Positions 9,750 through 29,341 of a DNA stretch of 59,811 nt are shown piece by piece. Numbering within the stretch: the stretch's first letter is position 1; the number at the start of each line of letters is the position of its first letter. Origin of the DNA: a virus. The stretch spans positions 1 through 59,811 of the IMG/VR virus record IMGVR_UViG_3300023199_000016. One strand, 5' to 3'. The notes under the pieces are model-generated. The model worked only from the letters and a program-made list of their open reading frames with translations, ran no database searches and was not told the DNA's origin. A program made the translations under genes and the position numbers.

Positions 9750-11069
9750 TCAATCGGTTGGGAACAACAAAATGCACCGCACGTTCATGTCCCGCGGGTC
9801 AATGATGTTGTCATGAATCGTCTTGACGATGTCGCTCTCTTCACCCACTGGCATATTGTAGATGATCGAACCCACGTCCTTCGTGCAAGCAGCGGACAAG
9901 TCGCCGTAGGCCGACTGCTCGAGCATCTCGAACACTTCGCCATCACCCTTTGCAATTTGTTCGGGTTTGCGCTTCTCGAAGATCGGGTCCCAGATGGCGA
10001 CCTTTCGACTGGGTCGCAATCGGTTCCACAACTCAAGGCACAATGAGTCTCGAAGTTCGTCGCTTCCCGGTCGCATCGCTGCACCAACAATGAGGACCGT
10101 TTCGTTCGCTTCGCATTCGAGAGCCTTGCGAACGATTTGCTCGATGTGCTCTTCACGTGAATCCCAACACGCTGCGATCAAATCCATGTCCTTGGCGAGA
10201 CGTCGTGCTGCACGTGCGTCCTTCGGCAAACACGCACCAGAATACGGTGGGCCCGGGTTCATGTGCGAGTGCGTAAGCAAGCGACCAAACGAGCCTTCAT
10301 CCATCGCGGTCGAAACGCATTCGCTTGGCGACACTCCTTCCCAATTACACAGCTCCGATTTGAGCAGGCTGTCCTCGATCACCTTCGCCCATTCGTTGAC
10401 GAAGCAAATCTTCGCGGTCATGAAAGAGTTGTGAATCATCTTCGCCCACTCGGCGACGACCCACGGTACGATATGCCGAGGAACCTTGCCACGATCGTTC
10501 AACACGACCGAATCAATTGTGCCCGACACCTCGAGCGTGTCCTCAATCGTCGCAGCACGTTGATGTCCAATGATGATCTTCGCTGGCATCATGGTGTCTT
10601 CGACGCCGAAGCCTGCACGCAGGAATACCGGATGATAGAACACGCGGCGGCTCAACCGACCCGCGTATCGTTCGAGGTACCCCGGGAAGAGCGTTGACAA
10701 GATCACAACCGGACAGTCGGGAGTGCTTCCGTCAAGAGCACCAACTTGAGTAAGCACTCGTTCAAGCACGTCATAGTTTGCTTCACCCGCGGCGGTCACG
10801 GGCGTCTGCACGCCGATGAAGATGCAGTCAGGAGCAATCGGATCGTTTGGGTCCGGTTCGGTACGTGCTTCAAACCGATTCGCCGCAAGCAATTGTTGAA
10901 GCATTGCATCGCCCGTTCGTTCAACGTGCGGTACGTGTCCTTCGTTCATCTGCTTGACCTTATATCGGTCAATGTCGATGCCCGTCACGCGGTGATGATT
11001 GGCAAGGGCCATCGCGAATGCGGCACCCATGTTGCCAAGTCCATAGACATGAATGTTCTTGAGACTCAT
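9750..11069 (-). CDS. UDP-glucose/GDP-mannose-type 6-dehydrogenase, 439 aa
   Basis: NAD-dependent oxidation of a nucleotide sugar to a uronic acid is the family reaction. The Rossmann start (VYGLGNMGAAFAMALANHH), IFIGVQTPV, VILSTLFPGYLE, the helix with EWAKMIHNSFMTAK and the catalytic Cys in GACLPKDARAAR are all visible, so it looks functional. Start at the ATG at 11069 after AAAGGAA; upstream codons only read the neighbouring gene. It lies with a STELLO-like glycosyltransferase, a GT-B-like gene and, further upstream, a GDP-mannose epimerase-like gene, suggesting a sugar-nucleotide pathway. The exact sugar cannot be told. Confidence 0.85.
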   Translation of the reverse strand: MSLKNIHVYGLGNMGAAFAMALANHHRVTGIDIDRYKVKQMNEGHVPHVERTGDAMLQQLLAANRFEARTEPDPNDPIAPDCIFIGVQTPVTAAGEANYDVLERVLTQVGALDGSTPDCPVVILSTLFPGYLERYAGRLSRRVFYHPVFLRAGFGVEDTMMPAKIIIGHQRAATIEDTLEVSGTIDSVVLNDRGKVPRHIVPWVVAEWAKMIHNSFMTAKICFVNEWAKVIEDSLLKSELCNWEGVSPSECVSTAMDEGSFGRLLTHSHMNPGPPYSGACLPKDARAARRLAKDMDLIAACWDSREEHIEQIVRKALECEANETVLIVGAAMRPGSDELRDSLCLELWNRLRPSRKVAIWDPIFEKRKPEQIAKGDGEVFEMLEQSAYGDLSAACTKDVGSIIYNMPVGEESDIVKTIHDNIIDPRDMNVRCILLFPTD

Positions 11070-11080
11070 TGAACGTTCCT

Positions 11081-11278
11081 TTACCTGTCTTTGGTTTGGT
11101 TTCGTCGGTCGCCTCTTACAAGTAAGACGACCGTAAAGATGACGGCGGCGCCTGTCCCATACGTGACTGCATTCGTTCGCCAGAACCAATCAAGCACCGT
11201 GCCGTCACCGGGCGCTTTGTTCAAGCAATACCAAACGAGACCTAAGAGTCCCAGCATAACGATTGCAGCCAGTCGCAT
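11081..11278 (-). CDS. Small two-span membrane protein, 65 aa
   Basis: Preceded by AAAGGAG and starting four bases after the upstream stop. Two hydrophobic segments are clear (about 3-19, LAAIVMLGLLGLVWYCL, and about 39-54, YGTGAAVIFTVVLLVR), separated by a polar loop and followed by a basic tail. Holin or other small membrane roles are possible, but its position among sugar-nucleotide and glycosyltransferase genes argues for an accessory role there. No family recognised. Confidence 0.75.
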   Translation of the reverse strand: MRLAAIVMLGLLGLVWYCLNKAPGDGTVLDWFWRTNAVTYGTGAAVIFTVVLLVRGDRRNQTKDR

Positions 11279-17370: not shown

Positions 17371-18399
17371 CTACGCTCCTTTCACCATTGCATTGATCCA
17401 CTCAAACGTTTCTTCAAGCCCTTCACGAAGCGACCAAGCGGGCTCCCATCCAAGCTTATCACGAATCAATGCGTTGTGACTGTTTCTGCTCTGTACGCCT
17501 TGTGGTTTGGTCGTGTCATACGCTCGCACAAGGTTCGGCTTGCCCGCGATGTCTTGAATGATATCACACATTTCGTTGATCGTCACACACTCTTCAGAGC
17601 CGATGTTGACCGGACCGTGGAACGTTCTTGATCCCATCAAGCGAAGTACAGCATCGAGGCAGTCTTCAATGTACAAGAACGATCGACGTTGTTCACCGTC
17701 GCCCCAGACTTCAATCTCGCTCTTTCCGTTGACGCCCGCCTTTGCAATCTTACGGCACAATGCGGCGGGCGCCTTCTCTCGTCCTCCTTCATACGTTCCG
17801 AACGGACCAAAGATATTGTGGAAGCGTGCGATCTTGATCGTATAACCGAAGTCACGTGCGAACGCTTGACACAAACGTTCGCCCGTAAGCTTCTCCCAAC
17901 CGTAGTCGCTGTCAGGATCGGCGGGATACACAATGTCCTCAGGCAAAGAGACAACATCGTGGTGCGACTGAACTTCAGTGGGATACACGCAGGCCGACGA
18001 AGAGAACAACATCTTTGGTGCGAACTCCCAGTGGGCGGCTTGATAGCGCATCCAGTGTAAGACCGACAACGTGATGCTCAAGTTGTTGTGAAGGATCTCT
18101 GCATCGTGCCCTTGATCTTGAATGAATCCGATACCGCCCATGTCAGCAGCGAAGTGAAAGATGTGATCGTACGGACCGCGTTGCATCAATGCGTTGATCG
18201 TTTGATCTCGATTGCGAAGATCAACCGACAAGTACTTATCGCATATCTCTCGCGCATCAAACCAGTCAGGCTTGGGTTTGATGTCGATGACATCGACTTG
18301 ACTGAGTTGCTGCAAGGCGTGCAGCCGTCTTGCAAGATGTGAACCGATGAAACCCGCACCGCCTGTGATAAGAATCCTCTTCTTGCTTACCTTACTCAT
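17371..18399 (-). CDS. GDP-mannose 3,5-epimerase-like SDR enzyme, 342 aa
   Basis: An extended short-chain dehydrogenase with the GAGFIGSHLARRL nucleotide-binding motif, HFAADMGGIGFIQ, a Ser-rich SSSACVYP and the catalytic Tyr-Lys in YGWEKLTGERL. RFHNIFGPFGTYEGGREKAPA matches GDP-mannose 3,5-epimerase, which makes GDP-L-galactose or GDP-L-gulose; related 4,6-dehydratases or epimerases remain possible. The ATG overlaps the upstream stop and follows GAGGAGTT. It probably feeds the nearby glycosyltransferases. Confidence 0.88.
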   Translation of the reverse strand: MSKVSKKRILITGGAGFIGSHLARRLHALQQLSQVDVIDIKPKPDWFDAREICDKYLSVDLRNRDQTINALMQRGPYDHIFHFAADMGGIGFIQDQGHDAEILHNNLSITLSVLHWMRYQAAHWEFAPKMLFSSSACVYPTEVQSHHDVVSLPEDIVYPADPDSDYGWEKLTGERLCQAFARDFGYTIKIARFHNIFGPFGTYEGGREKAPAALCRKIAKAGVNGKSEIEVWGDGEQRRSFLYIEDCLDAVLRLMGSRTFHGPVNIGSEECVTINEMCDIIQDIAGKPNLVRAYDTTKPQGVQSRNSHNALIRDKLGWEPAWSLREGLEETFEWINAMVKGA

Positions 18400-20173: not shown

Positions 20174-20209
20174 GCTACTTTCCTTTCATTCTTTCTACGA
20201 ATCAAACGA

Positions 20210-20235
20210 CTGCACCGGCCTTTCGACCGGTGCAG
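20210..20235 (-). terminator. Hairpin with GAAA tetraloop between early genes
   Basis: An 11-bp stem (CTGCACCGGTC with GGCCGGTGCAG, one T-G pair) capped by GAAA. No T-run follows, so it is more likely an RNA-stabilising or processing hairpin than a terminator. The apex GGTC-GAAA-GGCC is the same as in the hairpin at 54156-54177. Confidence 0.65.
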
Positions 20236-20284
20236 TGCGACTTCATACGAAGCGTTGGGTTTCGGTTGAAACGAACGAAGTGCT

Positions 20285-20812
20285 TCAGTCTTCGTTCTCT
20301 TCTTCCTCCTCGTCGCCTTCCATTTCGGCGAGGGCACCGAGGAGACCTTGTGCGGCATCTTCGTCGATGCCTTGCGCCTTGAGGACTGCGGCAACATCCA
20401 CGTCCTGCTTCTTGAGGCGACCGACCAACTCGAGCATGGTCTTCTGAACCTTCTTGAGTCGGTTCGCTGCCTGGCGGGTTTCCTTGTCGCCGAGGGTGCG
20501 TGCTTCTTCGGCTTTCGCTCTGAACTCTTCGGCTTTCGTTTCGTATTCAGCAGCCTTCATATCGAAGTACGTCGCCTCACTGGCGAAGTCCTTCTTCTTG
20601 AGAGGCTTGTGCTTCGACGAATCGAAGTCGTCCGGGATTTCCTTGAAGGGATAGACATCGGGATCGTCCGAGTCGACAAGCGGGTGTACCACTTTCTTCG
20701 GCTTGGCCGCCGACTCGTCCTTCGAGCCCGGGCGTGAACCGCCGGTATTCGTCTTGACGTTTGCCTTCTTACGAGCGGTTGCACTCTGACGATTTGCGGA
20801 TCGCTTAGCCAT
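20285..20812 (-). CDS. Coiled-coil protein with acidic tail, 175 aa
   Basis: Not recognised. A basic, Lys/Arg/Ala/Ser-rich N-terminus (about 1-40) is followed by a coil (FDMKAAEYETKAEEFRAKAE, then TRQAANRLKKVQKTMLELV) and a very acidic C-terminus (EGDEEEEENED). Acidic tails are typical of proteins that contact other replication factors, so an accessory replication or recombination role is possible. The ATG follows an AAAGGA site. Confidence 0.8.
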   Translation of the reverse strand: MAKRSANRQSATARKKANVKTNTGGSRPGSKDESAAKPKKVVHPLVDSDDPDVYPFKEIPDDFDSSKHKPLKKKDFASEATYFDMKAAEYETKAEEFRAKAEEARTLGDKETRQAANRLKKVQKTMLELVGRLKKQDVDVAAVLKAQGIDEDAAQGLLGALAEMEGDEEEEENED

Positions 20813-20883: not shown

Positions 20884-21291
20884 TCAATTCTGCTTTGCGT
20901 TTCGACGCATTGCTTCATTGGCCATCACACGTTTGAGAGTTTGATCTTCGTGCTGTTGGGTAGCATACGCTTCGGGGAAGATCGCATCCTTCAACTTCTT
21001 TGGCATCGATTGCATATTCGTTGCTTTGAGGCCAGCAAGTTGAAGTTTGATCTTTGCGAGTTGGCACGCTGATTGGTACAACTCTTCTGCACAATCACAA
21101 CGGCGAGTACGAACACGCACGTCGAGTGCAATTGCTCGTGCAAGCTGGTGAGCAAGAAAGTTCCGAACGTAGATGGGCGAGCCCTCGATACCAACGTCGG
21201 GGTGCCCATCAACGAACACTTGAAGAGCGTACGTGTCAGATGACGTACAACACAACACGAATAAGAGATCGGTTTCCTGTTCGTCAGTCAT
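20884..21291 (-). CDS. Hypothetical protein, 135 aa
   Basis: Not recognised. Cysteines are at CCTSSD and RRCDC; the latter lies in RVRTRRCDCAEELYQSACQL. The central part is mixed helix and strand, and the C-terminus is helical and basic. The ATG is preceded by GAAAGGAAAGTAGA, part of a repeated leader after the first of the three hammerhead spacers. Presumably an early protein. Confidence 0.75.
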   Translation of the reverse strand: MTDEQETDLLFVLCCTSSDTYALQVFVDGHPDVGIEGSPIYVRNFLAHQLARAIALDVRVRTRRCDCAEELYQSACQLAKIKLQLAGLKATNMQSMPKKLKDAIFPEAYATQQHEDQTLKRVMANEAMRRNAKQN

Positions 21292-21314
21292 TCTACTTTC
21301 CTTTCGCTTTGGGC

Positions 21315-21379
21315 AGTCTCATCAGACTGGCTTGCCCAAGGTCCAGTGACGTCCGATCAAATGATCGGGCGTTTCGACT
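21315..21379 (-). ncRNA. Type II hammerhead ribozyme, copy A
   Basis: Reading the minus strand from 21379: AGUC (stem II), GAAA (21375-21372), stem III (about 9 bp with one C-A mismatch and a 4-base loop), UC, stem I (ACUGG at 21347-21343 with CCAGU at 21330-21326), CUGAUGA (21325-21319), then GACU closing stem II. All invariant core bases are present. Cleavage is expected after C 21348. It lies three bases after a stop codon. Confidence 0.92.
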
Positions 21380-21381
21380 TG

Positions 21382-21642
21382 TCAGATATGATGCGTGAAG
21401 ATGCGACCGGGAATCTTATCCCACTCTTCAACGTCTTCAAGTTCGATTCCTGCATAGCCGTGTTCAATCGCAAAGCGTGCCACACGCACCGCTTCAGAAC
21501 GATCGGCCGCCGCAATGTCGATTTCATCGCCGGGCAAACCGTGTTCATCACGCGTGAATGCTGTCCAGCGTTTCAGATGATCACCGTTGTTGTGCTGATC
21601 GCCGTCGAAGACATCGGCAAACTTGTTCTCTTGCAGTCTCAT
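21382..21642 (-). CDS. Hypothetical protein, 86 aa
   Basis: Not recognised. Start at the ATG at 21642, after GAAAGGAAAGTAGA; the longer frame upstream is leader sequence. The product has RWTAFTRDEHGLPG, then EIDIAAADRSEAVRVARFA and an acidic C-terminus. It is flanked on both sides by hammerhead ribozymes, so its mRNA would be trimmed at both ends by self-cleavage. Confidence 0.75.
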   Translation of the reverse strand: MRLQENKFADVFDGDQHNNGDHLKRWTAFTRDEHGLPGDEIDIAAADRSEAVRVARFAIEHGYAGIELEDVEEWDKIPGRIFTHHI

Positions 21643-21676
21643 TCTACTTTCCTTTCGTTTCGTTCGTTTCGCGGGC

Positions 21677-21744
21677 AGTCTCATCAGACTGGCTTGCCCA
21701 AGGTCCAGTGACGCCCGGTCGATTGATGACCGGACGTTTCGACT
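21677..21744 (-). ncRNA. Type II hammerhead ribozyme, copy B
   Basis: Same core as copy A. AGUC (21744-21741) overlaps the stop codon; GAAA at 21740-21737; stem III is 9 bp with a G-U pair and a 7-base loop and differs in sequence from copies A and C; stem I ACUGG/CCAGU; CUGAUGA at 21687-21681; GACU at 21680-21677. Cleavage is expected between 21710 and 21709. Confidence 0.93.
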
Positions 21745-22256
21745 TACTCTTCAACGAAGTAGTCGGCGTAGTGTGCGATGCGATTGTTGTGATGCGTCTC
21801 TGCATCGGCCTTTTCTTGGCAGTAGTGCCCGTGGTGCAGGCCGCCGCATTCACGGTTCCACACGTGAGAGGTCCAACGAGCATTTGATGTCCAGCCTTCA
21901 CCGCGATCAATCAGAACCGAAACGCAACACCCGTTGGGTTCGGCAACGTGATCGAGGACGACTGCATCAGAACCGAATGCTCGTTGTGTATCCAACTCCA
22001 AGCGACTAAGTTCTTCGCCCGTCAACGGATTCTTAGAAGCAACGAAGCAAGTCGGACAATACATGTTGAGGCCGACTTCTTTGAACACATCAGCGTCACC
22101 CCATCGTCCACATCGTTCGCAGGCAACGAGATTCTCGTCTTCGATTGCATTCTCGACTGCATCACGCACTTCGTCGTGCGACCGTACGGTGGTTGTGTCC
22201 GGAATGTCCCATTCACAGATCATCGAGCCGTCATCTTCAGTCATGTAAACCTTCAT
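21744..22256 (-). CDS. Zinc-binding hypothetical protein, 170 aa
   Basis: Start at the ATG at 22256 after GAAAGGAAAGTA. Cysteine pairs CERCGRWG and YCPTCF suggest a zinc ribbon in the first half; a second Cys/His-rich part (ECGGLHHGHYCQ, AETHHNNR) follows. The N-terminus looks like a small domain with an acidic helix (DEVRDAVENAIEDEN). No family recognised. It sits between two hammerhead ribozymes, with its stop codon at the start of copy B. Confidence 0.75.
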   Translation of the reverse strand: MKVYMTEDDGSMICEWDIPDTTTVRSHDEVRDAVENAIEDENLVACERCGRWGDADVFKEVGLNMYCPTCFVASKNPLTGEELSRLELDTQRAFGSDAVVLDHVAEPNGCCVSVLIDRGEGWTSNARWTSHVWNRECGGLHHGHYCQEKADAETHHNNRIAHYADYFVEE

Positions 22257-22293
22257 ACTACTTTCCTTTCGTTTCGTTCGTTTCGCTTCGGGC

Positions 22294-22355
22294 AGTCTCA
22301 TCAGACTGGCTTGCCCAAGGTCCAGTGACCGGAGCATTGTGCTCCGGTTTCGACT
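22294..22355 (-). ncRNA. Type II hammerhead ribozyme, copy C
   Basis: AGUC (22355-22352) begins at the stop codon of the acidic-repeat gene; GAAA at 22351-22348; stem III is 8 bp (CCGGAGCA/UGCUCCGG); UC; stem I ACUGG (22326-22322) with CCAGU (22309-22305); CUGAUGA at 22304-22298; GACU at 22297-22294. Cleavage is expected between 22327 and 22326. The stem I loop contains GGGC, complementary to GCCC just after the ribozyme. Confidence 0.93.
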
Positions 22356-22726
22356 TAGTCGGTGTTGAGGTCGTCATCCCAATCAGCAACGCCGTCCTCA
22401 TCATAGTCGTCATTCTCTTCGTCGAATTCATCCCACTCGTCGATGTCGTCGTCGTCGAATTCATCCCACTCGTCGATGTCGTCGTCGTCTGCTTCGTTGT
22501 CGGGATTCGACAAGTCCTTCAAGAGATCGCCGAGGTCAGCGTATCCGTCAGCATACGCATCGTCGGTGAAGCCTTCGTCATAGACGTCTTGTGCAATCGA
22601 AACGACGTCCCACTTCCCGTCGGACACCAAATAGATTGCAGTGCAAAGCAATTCGGAAGTCGATCCATCAAAGATCGACACCTCGCCGTTGGCATGCACA
22701 TCAACGATCATTCGTGTTCGTGACAT
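22355..22726 (-). CDS. Acidic-repeat hypothetical protein, 123 aa
   Basis: Not recognised. An ordered-looking N-terminus (about 1-75, with EVSIFDGSTSELLC and WDVVSIAQDVYDEGF) precedes a very acidic C-terminus with two copies of DDDIDEWDEFD. The DNA behind the repeats is a direct repeat of about 33 bp. Such acidic tails can mimic DNA, as in anti-restriction proteins, but this is only a suggestion. It is the first gene after the large non-coding region and is followed by hammerhead copy C. Confidence 0.78.
   Translation of the reverse strand: MSRTRMIVDVHANGEVSIFDGSTSELLCTAIYLVSDGKWDVVSIAQDVYDEGFTDDAYADGYADLGDLLKDLSNPDNEADDDDIDEWDEFDDDDIDEWDEFDEENDDYDEDGVADWDDDLNTD
22410..22490 (-). repeat. Direct repeat coding for an acidic motif
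   Basis: Two copies of about 33 bases, each encoding DDDIDEWDEFD, lie back to back inside the acidic-repeat gene. They probably arose by recent duplication, since the DNA copies are nearly identical. Confidence 0.8.
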
Positions 22727-25508: not shown

Positions 25509-26015
25509 TTACTTGCTTGCTTTGCTTTCGTTGATAAGACCACCGGGCTGGAAGACCAGCCCTTTCTTTGATTCATACGCTTCAACATACGATTCATCGC
25601 CGATCACAAGACGCCAATGTGTCACACCCGCAAGCTCAAGAATCTGCAAGCCCCGATCGTCACTGTAGAAGTTTGACCAATACACTAAGTCGATTGCACC
25701 GCTGTTGACGATTGCAGTGGCGCATCTCCAGCACGGTGCGGTCGTGCAGTATAATGTTGCGTCTTTGATCGCTTGTGAATCGAGCTTGTTGATTGCGTTC
25801 TGCTCAGCGTGTGCACAACCACAGTCTTGCTTGATACCGGAGCAGAACGAGTGAGGCAGCTTTCGTGCCGGTCCGTTGTATCCGATTGAATGCACGGCGC
25901 TGAAGTCCTTGGGAAATACGATTGCACCACATGCTAGTCGCTTACATACTGAAAGCGCGGCAAGCTCATGGGCGAATCGAGCCATCACGATAAGCTTACG
26001 CATTGATCGTTGCAC
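25509..26015 (-). CDS. dCMP deaminase family protein, 168 aa
   Basis: The zinc site is complete: CAHAEQNAIN and TAPCWRCATAI. The fold converts dCMP to dUMP, feeding thymidylate synthesis. The start is the GTG at 26015, five bases after AAAGGAAAG; longer forms overlap the kinase by over 100 bases and are rejected. It lies between polA and the kinase in the nucleotide operon. A deoxycytidylate-type role is the default, although related enzymes act on other cytosine nucleotides. Confidence 0.9.
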   Translation of the reverse strand: MQRSMRKLIVMARFAHELAALSVCKRLACGAIVFPKDFSAVHSIGYNGPARKLPHSFCSGIKQDCGCAHAEQNAINKLDSQAIKDATLYCTTAPCWRCATAIVNSGAIDLVYWSNFYSDDRGLQILELAGVTHWRLVIGDESYVEAYESKKGLVFQPGGLINESKASK

Positions 26016-26595
26016 GGTGCTTTCCTTTCGTATTGAAGACAAGTCCAGTGCGCTCTTGTTCATGTCTTCGATCAAGATACTGATCGACGATGTCATTGGC
26101 AAACTGGCTTGGCCACCGTTCACCATTGGAAACTATCGGGTAGTCGACCTTGCAAACACCGGAGTCACTAAGTCGAATGAACTCATTGTTCACTTGCACG
26201 ATCTCAGTAAAGCGATACATCTCTTTACTTTGATCGCACTTGGCCCATTGATCCGCGAGGAAACGATTATGATTATCCCCTCCTCGCTCAGCGATACAAA
26301 GCACGACGAATCCGCAGTGCAGAGTTGTCCAAGCGTCGAGAGTTTGTAAGCCCGCGGCGCTAAGCGTCTCTTGATTCTGAAGTGCTTGACCGTATGCCTG
26401 ACGACTCAAGTAGAACCGATCCCACACGACGTTCGGATTCATCAACGGAATGTAGTCGGTATACTTATCAAACGACTCGGGTAACTTACTAAGAGGCAAC
26501 GGTATGTGCGACTCGCCCAGCTCGTTCAATCGTTTGACGAGTGCACGAACAAGAGTCGTCTTGCCAACAAGATCGGTTCCTTCAACGATAATCAT
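25996..26595 (-). CDS. Deoxynucleoside monophosphate kinase, 199 aa
   Basis: A P-loop kinase: VEGTDLVGKTTLVRAL is Walker A, WDRFYLSRQAYGQAL contains a DR-type substrate motif as in thymidylate and T4-type dNMP kinases. It phosphorylates a dNMP to the diphosphate. In a phage with modified bases such a kinase is needed to accept the modified monophosphate, which would fit the neighbouring dCMP-hydroxymethylase-like gene. The 3' end overlaps the deaminase start. Confidence 0.85.
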   Translation of the reverse strand: MIIVEGTDLVGKTTLVRALVKRLNELGESHIPLPLSKLPESFDKYTDYIPLMNPNVVWDRFYLSRQAYGQALQNQETLSAAGLQTLDAWTTLHCGFVVLCIAERGGDNHNRFLADQWAKCDQSKEMYRFTEIVQVNNEFIRLSDSGVCKVDYPIVSNGERWPSQFANDIVDQYLDRRHEQERTGLVFNTKGKHRATINA

Positions 26596-26598
26596 GAC

Positions 26599-27639
26599 TT
26601 AGTCCTTTGCAATCTGAATGTCGTGAGCCGCTTTCAATGCGGGTGAGAACGGATTGAACGGTTCATTAGGGAACCAACGCGTGCGTACGCATCGAACAAG
26701 ATCGGACATCAACGAACCGTGACCGCACATCGCATCGATCATATCATCGGATACACGATCTCGATTCTCTCGCATACGCTCCTCGAGCTCCATTGCATTG
26801 TTGATCGCTTGAGAGATCGGTCGCCCGTGCCACTTCCAGTCTGTGATCAGGTGATCTTGAGTGGCTGGGTCAAAGATGTCAAGGTCGTCAGGCTTGAGAT
26901 TCCGATCGTACAAGTGCATGCTTCCAACGTTGTGCGTATACGTTCCGGGCATACACTTGATCGCCTCGGCAATCAATCGTTGTAAGCAGGTGAAAGCAAA
27001 GACGTCATATGGGAACCCCAACCAAATATCGTTGCTTCGCATGTAGGTGATCGCATGAAGTCGGTCGTTGCGTCGAATGAACTGCACACCAAGGGTGCAA
27101 GGTATGTCGCCTTTCGACCCAGTGATTGAATGTAGTAAGTCACCCGCATTCCACATGGTGATCACGCACTGTCTTGTATTAGGTTGACGTTGAAGCAACG
27201 TGATTGCGGCGCTGATCTGCGTGTTGAGCGGCAGGTCCCCAACCATCTGACCGTATTCTCTGTCACGCAAGTACGAACCAAGCGTACGAAGAAACACAGG
27301 ATCATTCGTCCATCGCCAACCGTATGCACCGTGTGCCACACCGAACTCAGCGAAGCGATCGTATTGTGGCGCATATTGATGTATCATCTCGATGTCACGG
27401 TCGCCTCGACAATACCAAAGGAACTCCGCCGCAGCATAGGCGACGCTCAACTTGCGCTTTGGGTGTAAGACGAAGGTTTGGGTCAGGTCACGCAGTTTGA
27501 ATACATGCCCAATCAATTCGCGGCACCCACCGTCGCGACTCTTCAGTCGATTGCCGTTGTGTGCGAGGTCGTTGTAAAGAACTGGCCACGTGAGTGAGAT
27601 CGAATTGCTTACAAGATCATGCGGTGTTTGGGGTGACAT
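26599..27639 (-). CDS. Thymidylate-synthase-family enzyme, predicted dCMP hydroxymethylase, 346 aa
   Basis: The fold is ThyA: the catalytic Cys lies in GDIPCTLGVQF, followed by YMRSNDIWLGFPYD and MHLYD. Where true thymidylate synthases have Asn (the FN of PFNIA) this protein has Asp, the change that switches specificity from dUMP to dCMP in hydroxymethylases; the residue after PC is Thr rather than His. As the phage also has ThyX for dTMP, a dCMP-specific role is likely. Cytosine-specific methylation or hydroxymethylation is inferred, not shown. It overlaps the C5-methyltransferase-like gene by 23 bases. Confidence 0.8.
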   Translation of the reverse strand: MSPQTPHDLVSNSISLTWPVLYNDLAHNGNRLKSRDGGCRELIGHVFKLRDLTQTFVLHPKRKLSVAYAAAEFLWYCRGDRDIEMIHQYAPQYDRFAEFGVAHGAYGWRWTNDPVFLRTLGSYLRDREYGQMVGDLPLNTQISAAITLLQRQPNTRQCVITMWNAGDLLHSITGSKGDIPCTLGVQFIRRNDRLHAITYMRSNDIWLGFPYDVFAFTCLQRLIAEAIKCMPGTYTHNVGSMHLYDRNLKPDDLDIFDPATQDHLITDWKWHGRPISQAINNAMELEERMRENRDRVSDDMIDAMCGHGSLMSDLVRCVRTRWFPNEPFNPFSPALKAAHDIQIAKD

Positions 27640-28852
27640 GGTCTCTGTCTTTCTTTCGTGGAATACGCTGCGGTGCGTATTGCGTTATGTTGAATACTTT
27701 CTCATCAGGAGTTTCGTCAAACCACTGCCCTTGCCATTCTCCGTGCGTATCGGAGTAAGACGACTCAAAGTTCTCGCCGCCCCACTGATCATCAAGATAG
27801 AGCAAGGCCTGCTTCGCCAACCACTCGCCGGCACAAGGGCAAACGCCTTTGGCGATTTGACCGACAGGGTTCCAGCCTTTGGGCAAGACATCCTTATCCC
27901 AACCCATAAGTAATGCAAGTTCACGAACCGTCAACGGTCGATCAAGCTCGGGATGTAAGAAACGTCCGGCACTTCCGTGAATTGTTGGACAAGCACGATC
28001 CCACTCAACACGACGAATACAATGCGCACTGAACGGCATCTTAGATTGTGCGAGTGCAGAGATGTCCGCAAACCCGTCGGCACCTCGAGCCTCAAAGACG
28101 TCTGGTCGGTAGTTATGCAGGACGTTCAAGCATTCGCCCTGCCTCAACTCCGGCACCATCGCCCATTCATCCGTTGTCAAACGTTGGTATGAGTTCCCGT
28201 TGTACTTGCACTCCTTCGCACCAAGTGGCCGTTCATCAGAATGCTTTGGCTTTGATTGCTTGAATCGACCGATGATATCACGCACAGTCGCGTGCTCTGT
28301 GACAAGGTTGTCGGGTGGTTCAATGTTGAACGGTCGATCACGCTTGTAAGCGGCGAAGAAGTATCGCTTACGATGTTGTGCGTTACCAAACGTCGCAGCA
28401 TTGATGAACAGGTGCGCGATTGCATAACCGTTTGGCACGAATACGTTGTCACGCAAATAGTCAAGCAACGGTCGGCCCGTCGTGTAAGCTTGTTGAACCG
28501 ACTCCCAGATGCCAAGTTCAAACTGGCCTTTCACAGTGAACCAAGCGAAGTCATGAATGTCACACGTCGCCTTTGCCCAAGGACCGTGTCGGCCATCATC
28601 ATAGCCTCCGGTCAACGTAGAGAAGGCAGTACACCGCGGGTTGCCAAAGACAAACACAGCATTCTTGTAGAGTGATAGGGCTTCGTGCCAAGCTTCGCGA
28701 TTTGGTGTATTCACGAAGTCAATACCCATCCCTTCAACGGTATCTTTGCCAAGACCGTGAAGTTCAAACTGTGCGGGTACGTTGAACACTTTACGAACGC
28801 CTTGTGTAAAGCCACCCGCGAACACATGACAACCTACAGCGGTGTACGTCAT
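27617..28852 (-). CDS. C5-cytosine methyltransferase-like protein, 411 aa
   Basis: Motif I VFAGGFTQGV, motif IV GNPRCTAFSTLTGG, a motif VI position reading WESVQQA and motif VIII AQHRKRYFF are visible. Canonical enzymes have Pro-Cys at the catalytic site; here the order is Pro-Arg-Cys, and motif VI has Glu-Ser instead of Glu-Asn, so it is a divergent branch. It probably modifies cytosine in DNA; whether the group is methyl or larger is open. AGGAGTAACC precedes the ATG. It lies between MazG-like and the ThyA-family gene. Confidence 0.8.
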   Translation of the reverse strand: MTYTAVGCHVFAGGFTQGVRKVFNVPAQFELHGLGKDTVEGMGIDFVNTPNREAWHEALSLYKNAVFVFGNPRCTAFSTLTGGYDDGRHGPWAKATCDIHDFAWFTVKGQFELGIWESVQQAYTTGRPLLDYLRDNVFVPNGYAIAHLFINAATFGNAQHRKRYFFAAYKRDRPFNIEPPDNLVTEHATVRDIIGRFKQSKPKHSDERPLGAKECKYNGNSYQRLTTDEWAMVPELRQGECLNVLHNYRPDVFEARGADGFADISALAQSKMPFSAHCIRRVEWDRACPTIHGSAGRFLHPELDRPLTVRELALLMGWDKDVLPKGWNPVGQIAKGVCPCAGEWLAKQALLYLDDQWGGENFESSYSDTHGEWQGQWFDETPDEKVFNITQYAPQRIPRKKDRDHVTPNTA

Positions 28853-28855
28853 TGG

Positions 28856-29341
28856 TTACTCCTGAACGTTTCGACGATGCTCCTCAATGATACGAAGCAA
28901 GTCGGGCGGTTCGTATGTATTGCCCTTATGACGAAGACGCTCCGATCCATCAGCTTCTTTCGTCATGTTGCTTCGTTGAACCTCGAGGAAGCCAGCATCG
29001 AAAGGCAACCCAAAGGCGACAGCAGTGCCGACCAACACGTACACGGCGTCACAGAGTCCGTCAAGCGTCTGCACTTCGTTGCACTGTGACATCGCAACGA
29101 GAAGCTCACCGACCTCTTCGACGATAAGATGAGCGCGAATCAAACGCAAGTCATAGTCACCGGGACGATCCATGTCCGGATGAAGTGTACCATTCTCCCA
29201 CGCTTTCGATAGTTCGATAAGCATGATGCCAATGCGGTTCAACTCTGAACTCGCACCAAGTGTTTGACGTTCGAGTGGTTCGTTGATTGCGAACCCGTGC
29301 TTGCTGTGAAACTCTTTCAGCATTTGTTCATACGATCTCAT
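28856..29341 (-). CDS. MazG-like nucleotide pyrophosphohydrolase, 161 aa
   Basis: LIVEEVGELLVAM and the downstream CDAVYVLVGTAVAFGLP match the all-alpha NTP pyrophosphatase fold, with an EExxE-type metal site and a later Asp. Such enzymes hydrolyse (d)NTPs to monophosphates, and in phages they may remove unwanted nucleotides such as dCTP or alarmones. It is placed between ThyX and the C5-methyltransferase-like gene, consistent with control of the nucleotide pool. The ATG has GAAAGCATC upstream. Confidence 0.85.
   Translation of the reverse strand: MRSYEQMLKEFHSKHGFAINEPLERQTLGASSELNRIGIMLIELSKAWENGTLHPDMDRPGDYDLRLIRAHLIVEEVGELLVAMSQCNEVQTLDGLCDAVYVLVGTAVAFGLPFDAGFLEVQRSNMTKEADGSERLRHKGNTYEPPDLLRIIEEHRRNVQE

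Follow-up and report, generated by a model that had tools for sequence, protein, structure and literature searches.

Putative type II hammerhead ribozymes in three consecutive gene spacers of an uncultured tailed phage, and their probable role in mRNA processing

Why should three successive spacers between small phage genes each hold what looks like a complete hammerhead ribozyme, and what might these do to the message that carries them? The question arises in a 59.8-kb IMG/VR virus record of an uncultured tailed phage, taken here over its whole length of 59,811 nt and called the window. It encodes portal, head maturation protease, major head and tape-measure proteins together with polymerase A and a primase, and nearly all of the genes are on the minus strand. 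On that strand a non-coding stretch of ~780 nt follows polymerase A, and after it come four small genes running from 22726 to 20884. The features of the region are as follows.

25506-23509, minus strand: DNA polymerase A
22355..22726, minus strand: open reading frame of 123 aa, acidic, upstream of copy 1
22290..22355, minus strand: putative hammerhead copy 1 (from sequence, coordinates, pattern match and our own structural scan)
21744..22256, minus strand: open reading frame of 170 aa with two CxxC pairs, between copies 1 and 2; its stop abuts copy 2
21673..21744, minus strand: putative hammerhead copy 2 (from sequence, coordinates and pattern match)
21382..21642, minus strand: open reading frame of 86 aa, between copies 2 and 3; its stop lies 3 nt before the GUC arm of copy 3
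21311..21379, minus strand: putative hammerhead copy 3 (from sequence, coordinates, pattern match and RF02276 match)
20884..21291, minus strand: open reading frame of 135 aa, downstream of copy 3
20285..20812, minus strand: lysine-rich protein (from tblastn and synteny)
20209..20236, minus strand: terminator-like hairpin, 12 bp with a T-rich tail (consensus scan only; such matches are as frequent in shuffles)

No Pfam, PHROG or PADLOC family was matched by the 123-, 86- or 135-aa genes. The 170-aa gene matched neither a Pfam nor a PADLOC family, and PHROG only marginally (E 0.0085), and a search of IMG/VR gave no relative of it. The first-pass annotation called these early genes, a label that is presumptive; they do flank the spacers and are small ORFans downstream of DNA polymerase A. 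The lysine-rich protein is kept downstream of polymerase A in relatives, and adjoins hammerheads in four of them (L008, L013, L017 and L020). No promoter for the array was recognised by consensus scan.

The three spacers have a common layout, (A)GUC-GAAAC-stem III-GUC^A-stem I-CUGAUGA-GAC-UGCCC, with the predicted cleavage at the caret. Judged by this sequence, the element in each spacer is a circularly permuted hammerhead in which stem II is open, i.e. type II. Stem I comprises 5 bp, the open stem II 4 bp (A-U, G-C, U-A and C-G) and stem III 9-10 positions, stems I and III being closed by loops. The core requirement of CUGANGA, GAAA and a UH cleavage triplet is matched exactly in all three copies, as CUGAUGA, GAAA and GUC. 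In copy 1 the TAA stop of the 123-aa gene ends at 22355, where stem II begins. The 5′ arm of stem II, (A)GUC, occupies 22355-22352 and is followed by GAAA and a 9-bp stem III hairpin; C17 of the GUC lies at 22327, so that cleavage is predicted before 22326. The 5-bp stem I leads to CUGAUGA at 22304-22298, the 3′ arm of stem II (GAC) at 22297-22295 and a UGCCC tail at 22294-22290. Copy 2 has a stem III of 10 bp including one U.G, C17 at 21710 with cleavage predicted before 21709, CUGAUGA at 21687-21681, GAC to 21678 and the tail at 21677-21673. Copy 3 has ten stem III positions (one a C x A mismatch), C17 at 21348 with cleavage predicted before 21347, CUGAUGA at 21325-21319, GAC to 21316 and the tail at 21315-21311. 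The cleavage phosphates placed in this way (22327/22326, 21710/21709 and 21348/21347) agree with the 5′ ends of 22326, 21709 and 21347 that had been predicted earlier.

In all three copies loop I (UUGGGCA) is complementary to the tail that follows stem II, forming a GGGCA/UGCCC pseudoknot of 5, 5 and 7 bp. This pseudoknot was absent from the first-pass annotation, which had otherwise correctly placed a complete type II hammerhead in each spacer of the minus strand. The pattern GTCGAAAC-N8-30-GTCACTGG gives three matches in the window and none in 100 dinucleotide shuffles. Our type II structural scanner finds these three elements and no others over the whole 59.8 kb, and a structural scan of the same DNA found no type I or type III hammerhead. 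All three lie within 1.05 kb on one strand, with a single gene between neighbours. The stop codon directly adjoins stem II in copies 1 and 2 and falls 3 nt before the GUC arm in copy 3, as had been noted, and the distance from the GAC arm to the next AUG is 38, 35 and 24 nt in copies 1, 2 and 3. We considered a start codon within CUGAUGA itself (ATGA), and rejected it; it is in frame with the gene that follows copy 1 and with that following copy 2, but after copy 3 a TAG interrupts the frame, so that such a start is not conserved.

The three copies do not differ in stem I, loop I, core or pseudoknot tail, and the identical core that they share extends over ~40 nt. Only stem III can therefore give independent evidence inside the window. 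The copies are related duplicates rather than three independent witnesses, and independent evidence has to come from elsewhere. Stem III had been described as differing between copies while remaining paired by compensating changes, and this is partly so. Copies 2 and 3 differ at pair 8 by a true compensating change (G-C to A-U), and the stem III of copy 1 is unrelated to the other two and fully paired; however, the fourth pair is U.G in copy 2 and is broken as C x A in copy 3.

Unconstrained folding favours a UUGGGCA/UGCCCAA hairpin that traps CUGAUGA, at -28.6 to -33.1 kcal/mol, compared with -18.3 to -24.0 kcal/mol for the hammerhead when its pseudoknot is left out, a helix worth roughly -7.5 to -10 kcal/mol. 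Since the non-pseudoknotted competitor is more stable than the pseudoknot-free hammerhead, activity cannot be assumed, and these calculations suggest that misfolding into the competitor hairpin may limit cutting.

A search with the Rfam Hammerhead_II model, proposed earlier as a check, gave a mixed answer. Copy 3 was matched by RF02276 at 28.3 bits (E 0.0041), under the gathering score of 37, and no match was reported for copies 1 and 2. The gathering score is a database threshold and not a structural definition, so membership of the class rests on the core, the stems and the pseudoknot. The window elements resemble RF02276 in having an open stem II of 3-4 bp, closed stems I and III, the CUGAUGA, GAAA and GUC elements, and the pseudoknot between loop I and the 3′ tail; they differ in the shorter stem I (5 bp) with a loop of 12 nt, the long stem III and the sub-threshold score. 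The majority of type II hammerheads are described as having loop I paired with the tail that follows stem II, in a pseudoknot of 4 bp or more (text of PMC3088659). Contigs of the same polymerase lineage (G001, G005, G006 and G008) have RF02276 matches above the cut-off, up to 60.8 bits. Assignment of the window elements to type II is thus supported by core, stems and pseudoknot, and by related clusters in syntenic positions.

These clusters are found in contigs that encode a polymerase A sharing about 40-48% identity with that of the window, where type II hammerheads lie downstream of the polymerase on the coding strand and nearly all just past a stop codon. Their number ranges from one to six: six in L013, five in L020, three in L010, two each in L008 and L017, and one in L016. 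The feature is patchy in the lineage, because the polymerase relatives L009, L015, L021 and L022 have no hammerheads.

Two sequence-only patterns, each comprising the core and a 3-bp stem II, were scanned over IMG/VR, and the figures that follow refer to the matches listed. Pairing was tested with such matches and with shuffles because a MAFFT alignment of the distant copies was too poor for pair counting. Stems I and III both form in 86% of 287 listed core matches, compared with 0.37% after shuffling the inner letters. Pairing of loop I with the tail over at least 4 bp is found in 53% of the matches listed, against 13% when the tails are dealt among the ribozymes, and in arrays of three or more a loop pairs with its own tail in 59% and with that of a neighbour in 20%. 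In L118 the eight copies all have different loop I and tail sequences, and each matches its own partner; this is copy-by-copy covariation within one genome.

Among the matches listed, 309 copies have enough flanking sequence for their position to be assessed, and 258 of these have a same-strand stop upstream and a same-strand start downstream. The stop lies within -6 to +3 nt of the ribozyme start in 74% of the 309, compared with 4% at random same-strand places and about 5% antisense. A start at the stop codon had been counted as part of a striking arrangement; it is the rule among viral type II hammerheads rather than a peculiarity of this phage, and may simply reflect the compactness of phage genomes. 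Larger arrays occur. At the locus L217 (contig IMGVR_UViG_3300038412_000035) nine hammerheads separate small genes, with 11 Rfam matches in the contig; almost all of these hammerheads lack the loop I pseudoknot, and their stem I covaries. Four type II hammerheads lie in L402, a contig in a Lokiarchaeota MAG; this may represent an archaeal virus, or else a phage that was binned wrongly.

We think it probable that the three hammerheads cut in cis during transcription and convert a polycistronic mRNA into single-gene messages with structured, protected ends. From the sequences, conserved structures, positions and orientation described above we infer cleavage, end protection and independent expression in the following manner. 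The small-gene operon would be transcribed as one RNA, from at least 22726 down to about 20209, where the hairpin at 20209..20236 would terminate it. In each spacer stem II would be open, stems I and III would form hairpins and loop I would pair with the tail as a pseudoknot, and the RNA would be cut after GUC. The stem III hairpin, with a 2′,3′-cyclic phosphate, would then form the end of the upstream mRNA about 30 nt beyond the stop codon, and the downstream mRNA would start with a 5′-OH and a fold of stem I and the pseudoknot, 56-70 nt upstream of its AUG. Because the cut would leave a stem III hairpin at the 3′ end, and a folded 5′ end with the ribosome-binding site intact, we favour processing into stable single-gene mRNAs. 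Such RNase-resistant ends would allow the message level to be set separately for each small gene. Stem II and GAAA would be hidden beneath a ribosome that has reached the stop codon, so the cut is probably held back until the upstream gene has been translated, i.e. it would be gated by translation. Tandem triple hammerheads are reported to self-cleave in vitro and in E. coli (text of PMC3088659).

A different, though tentative, account accepts that the hammerheads are functional and places their main evolutionary role in providing shared borders, at which genes are swapped, gained or lost by homologous recombination while each newcomer keeps its start site and 3′ end. Related array contigs were compared by blastn, and the evidence comes mostly from a Mu-like phage family, present largely in Gastranaerophilales assemblies. 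MuA, a MuB-like AAA protein and GemA lie upstream, followed by hammerhead 1, a variable gene of about 90 aa, hammerhead 2 and a Mor-like activator. The Rfam search missed the hammerheads of this family; core, stems and compensating changes identify them. L344 and L409 share near-identical sequence as far as the start codon, and their match becomes exact at the first base of hammerhead 2; the genes in between differ. L363, which has one hammerhead, follows the left flank of L412 up to GGTCGAAAC and then continues as L412 hammerhead 2, the join falling within GGTCGAAAC. The family contains both one hammerhead with different genes and one gene with different hammerheads. We note that the bordered gene is swapped, or deleted with one hammerhead, at base resolution in L339, L340, L344, L357 and L360, and likewise in L363, L398, L408, L409 and L412.

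A gene with a hammerhead on either side is left unaligned in 69% of comparisons (98/142), compared with 3.6% of other genes (31/864) and 8.3% of other small genes, but nearly all the replaced genes stem from one phage family and the comparisons are not independent. In three other families (L225/L307, L114/L127 and L116/L305) the bordered gene is kept. No further families were found among relatives of the array neighbours of L118 and L119, and in relatives of the L172 array neighbour the array is absent. In the lineage of the window, L013 and L020 differ at the protein level in the gene between families 1 and 0, two conserved hammerhead-bordered genes. The ~40-nt identical core would suit exchange in the window too, but no close relative of the window was found and its bordered 170-aa gene has no findable relative; cassette exchange may apply here, as a lead rather than a result. 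Recombination at hammerheads could moreover be a by-product of conserved sequence. Generalised, and with the same reserve, type II hammerhead spacers might be standardised borders of exchangeable cassettes in phage early operons, each cassette being a gene and the hammerhead after it. Recombination in the shared ribozyme core would insert, delete or swap genes, and the ribozyme would deliver an autonomous single-gene mRNA regardless of the neighbours. The likeness is to the gene cassettes of integrons, with homologous recombination in place of integrase and the ribozyme in place of attC. If true, one catalytic RNA would serve both mRNA processing and modular genome evolution in phages.

It is improbable that the spacers are inactive relics, or mere 3′-end hairpins that act as terminators or exonuclease barriers without catalysis. 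The strong stem III hairpin directly past each stop codon and the window scores below the Rfam cut-off could be read in this way, but the catalytic elements are intact in all three copies, and stems I and III and the pseudoknot are kept paired in relatives and within arrays. A terminator role for stem III was rejected, there being no T-run after it.

Successive hammerheads could also free a gene-length RNA whose ends are the two halves of one ribozyme and are re-joined to give a circular mRNA. The stem II sequences of neighbouring copies in the window are compatible (all GUC/GAC), and cross-pairing of 3 bp or more is found for 74% of neighbours against 55% with other phages; however, stem II pairs within its own ribozyme in 95%, so cross-compatibility is not strictly kept, and circles were sought and not found in the tested bacterial tandem hammerheads, according to the text of PMC3088659. 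We regard this as very unlikely. Chance resemblance in a duplicated spacer would fit the identical 3′ halves, which make the copies less than three independent observations, but is effectively excluded by the empty shuffles, by at least 367 real hits of our scanner against one in a 3.4-Mb Markov control, and by the presence of the element at the same genomic position in distant relatives.

Processing of the mRNA is thus the reading we prefer, and its elements have precedents. The literature already contains type II hammerheads, their pseudoknot, the clustering around small phage genes and the idea of mRNA processing (texts of PMC3088659 and PMC6155905). Three hammerheads in consecutive spacers had struck the first-pass annotation as a remarkable arrangement; it stands, but is less unusual than supposed, for prophage multiples flanking single genes, triples included, were reported in 2011 along with the idea of cutting (text of PMC3088659). 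These clusters, of Perreault et al., are in Clostridium scindens, Azorhizobium caulinodans and Agrobacterium tumefaciens, the last a triple array around ardA. Their defining arrangement, in which single genes or short blocks are flanked by several hammerheads of one strand, recurs in the window, and in both cases cutting of a phage-derived operon into single-gene mRNAs is proposed. In that text the tested arrays cleave, whereas cleavage in the window is predicted from sequence; the window also differs in belonging to an uncultured phage lineage, in its place downstream of DNA polymerase A, in its near-identical copies and in a ribozyme start that is set by the stop codon.

The hammerhead of haloviruses HF1 and HF2 likewise lies in a viral early region, with a mapped transcript 5′ end near the cleavage site; unlike those of the window it is single, has a variant core and precedes the start codon of an early helicase gene by 13 nt (text of PMC3088659). 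As it stands before the helicase gene and outside any array, not all phage hammerheads are spacers. The theta (HDV-like) ribozymes of gut phages are also self-cleaving RNAs in phage genomes, but are of another class and linked to tRNA-based recoding (PMC10879173), and no tRNA or tmRNA gene was found within the window. The stop-codon register, array size, copy-by-copy covariation of pseudoknots and cassette exchange do not appear in the open-access passages and literature search results covered, figures apart, and we do not claim them as unpublished. Comparison with relatives adds that, on the sequence alignments of the Mu-like family, genes between hammerheads can be swapped like cassettes. 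The processing idea becomes concretely testable through the fixed post-stop register, the arrays, which reach about ten hammerheads per phage, the covariation of pseudoknots from copy to copy in one genome, and the exact exchange of genes between ribozymes.

Some other features of the window may be recorded. The ~780-nt non-coding stretch separating polymerase A from the array contains two near-identical 37-nt hairpins (CGTGCGTAAGTCGTT...AACGGGTTACGCACG) on the minus strand, at 23319-23283 and 23254-23218, with folding energies of -19 to -20 kcal/mol; the pair is perhaps an origin or a regulatory site. The 123-aa gene contains a tandem acidic repeat (DDDDIDEWDEF, twice) at about 22485-22415 on the minus strand. 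The only DNA match in a named, cultured phage is to Gordonia phage Suzy; it covers just 5%, falls over this acidic coding stretch and not over a hammerhead, and looks spurious. On the minus strand at 25509-29341 there follow in a row genes for a dCMP deaminase, a thymidylate-synthase-like protein, a C5-methylase-like protein and a MazG-like pyrophosphohydrolase, and at the corresponding position the relative L088 is annotated 'pyrimidine hmase'; together these suggest modified bases in the phage DNA. Two minus-strand genes are of the sugar-nucleotide kind: a UDP-glucose dehydrogenase (PHROG) is encoded at 9750-11189, and the start of the protein encoded at 17371-18399 (ILITGGAGFIGSHL) resembles an NAD-dependent sugar epimerase.
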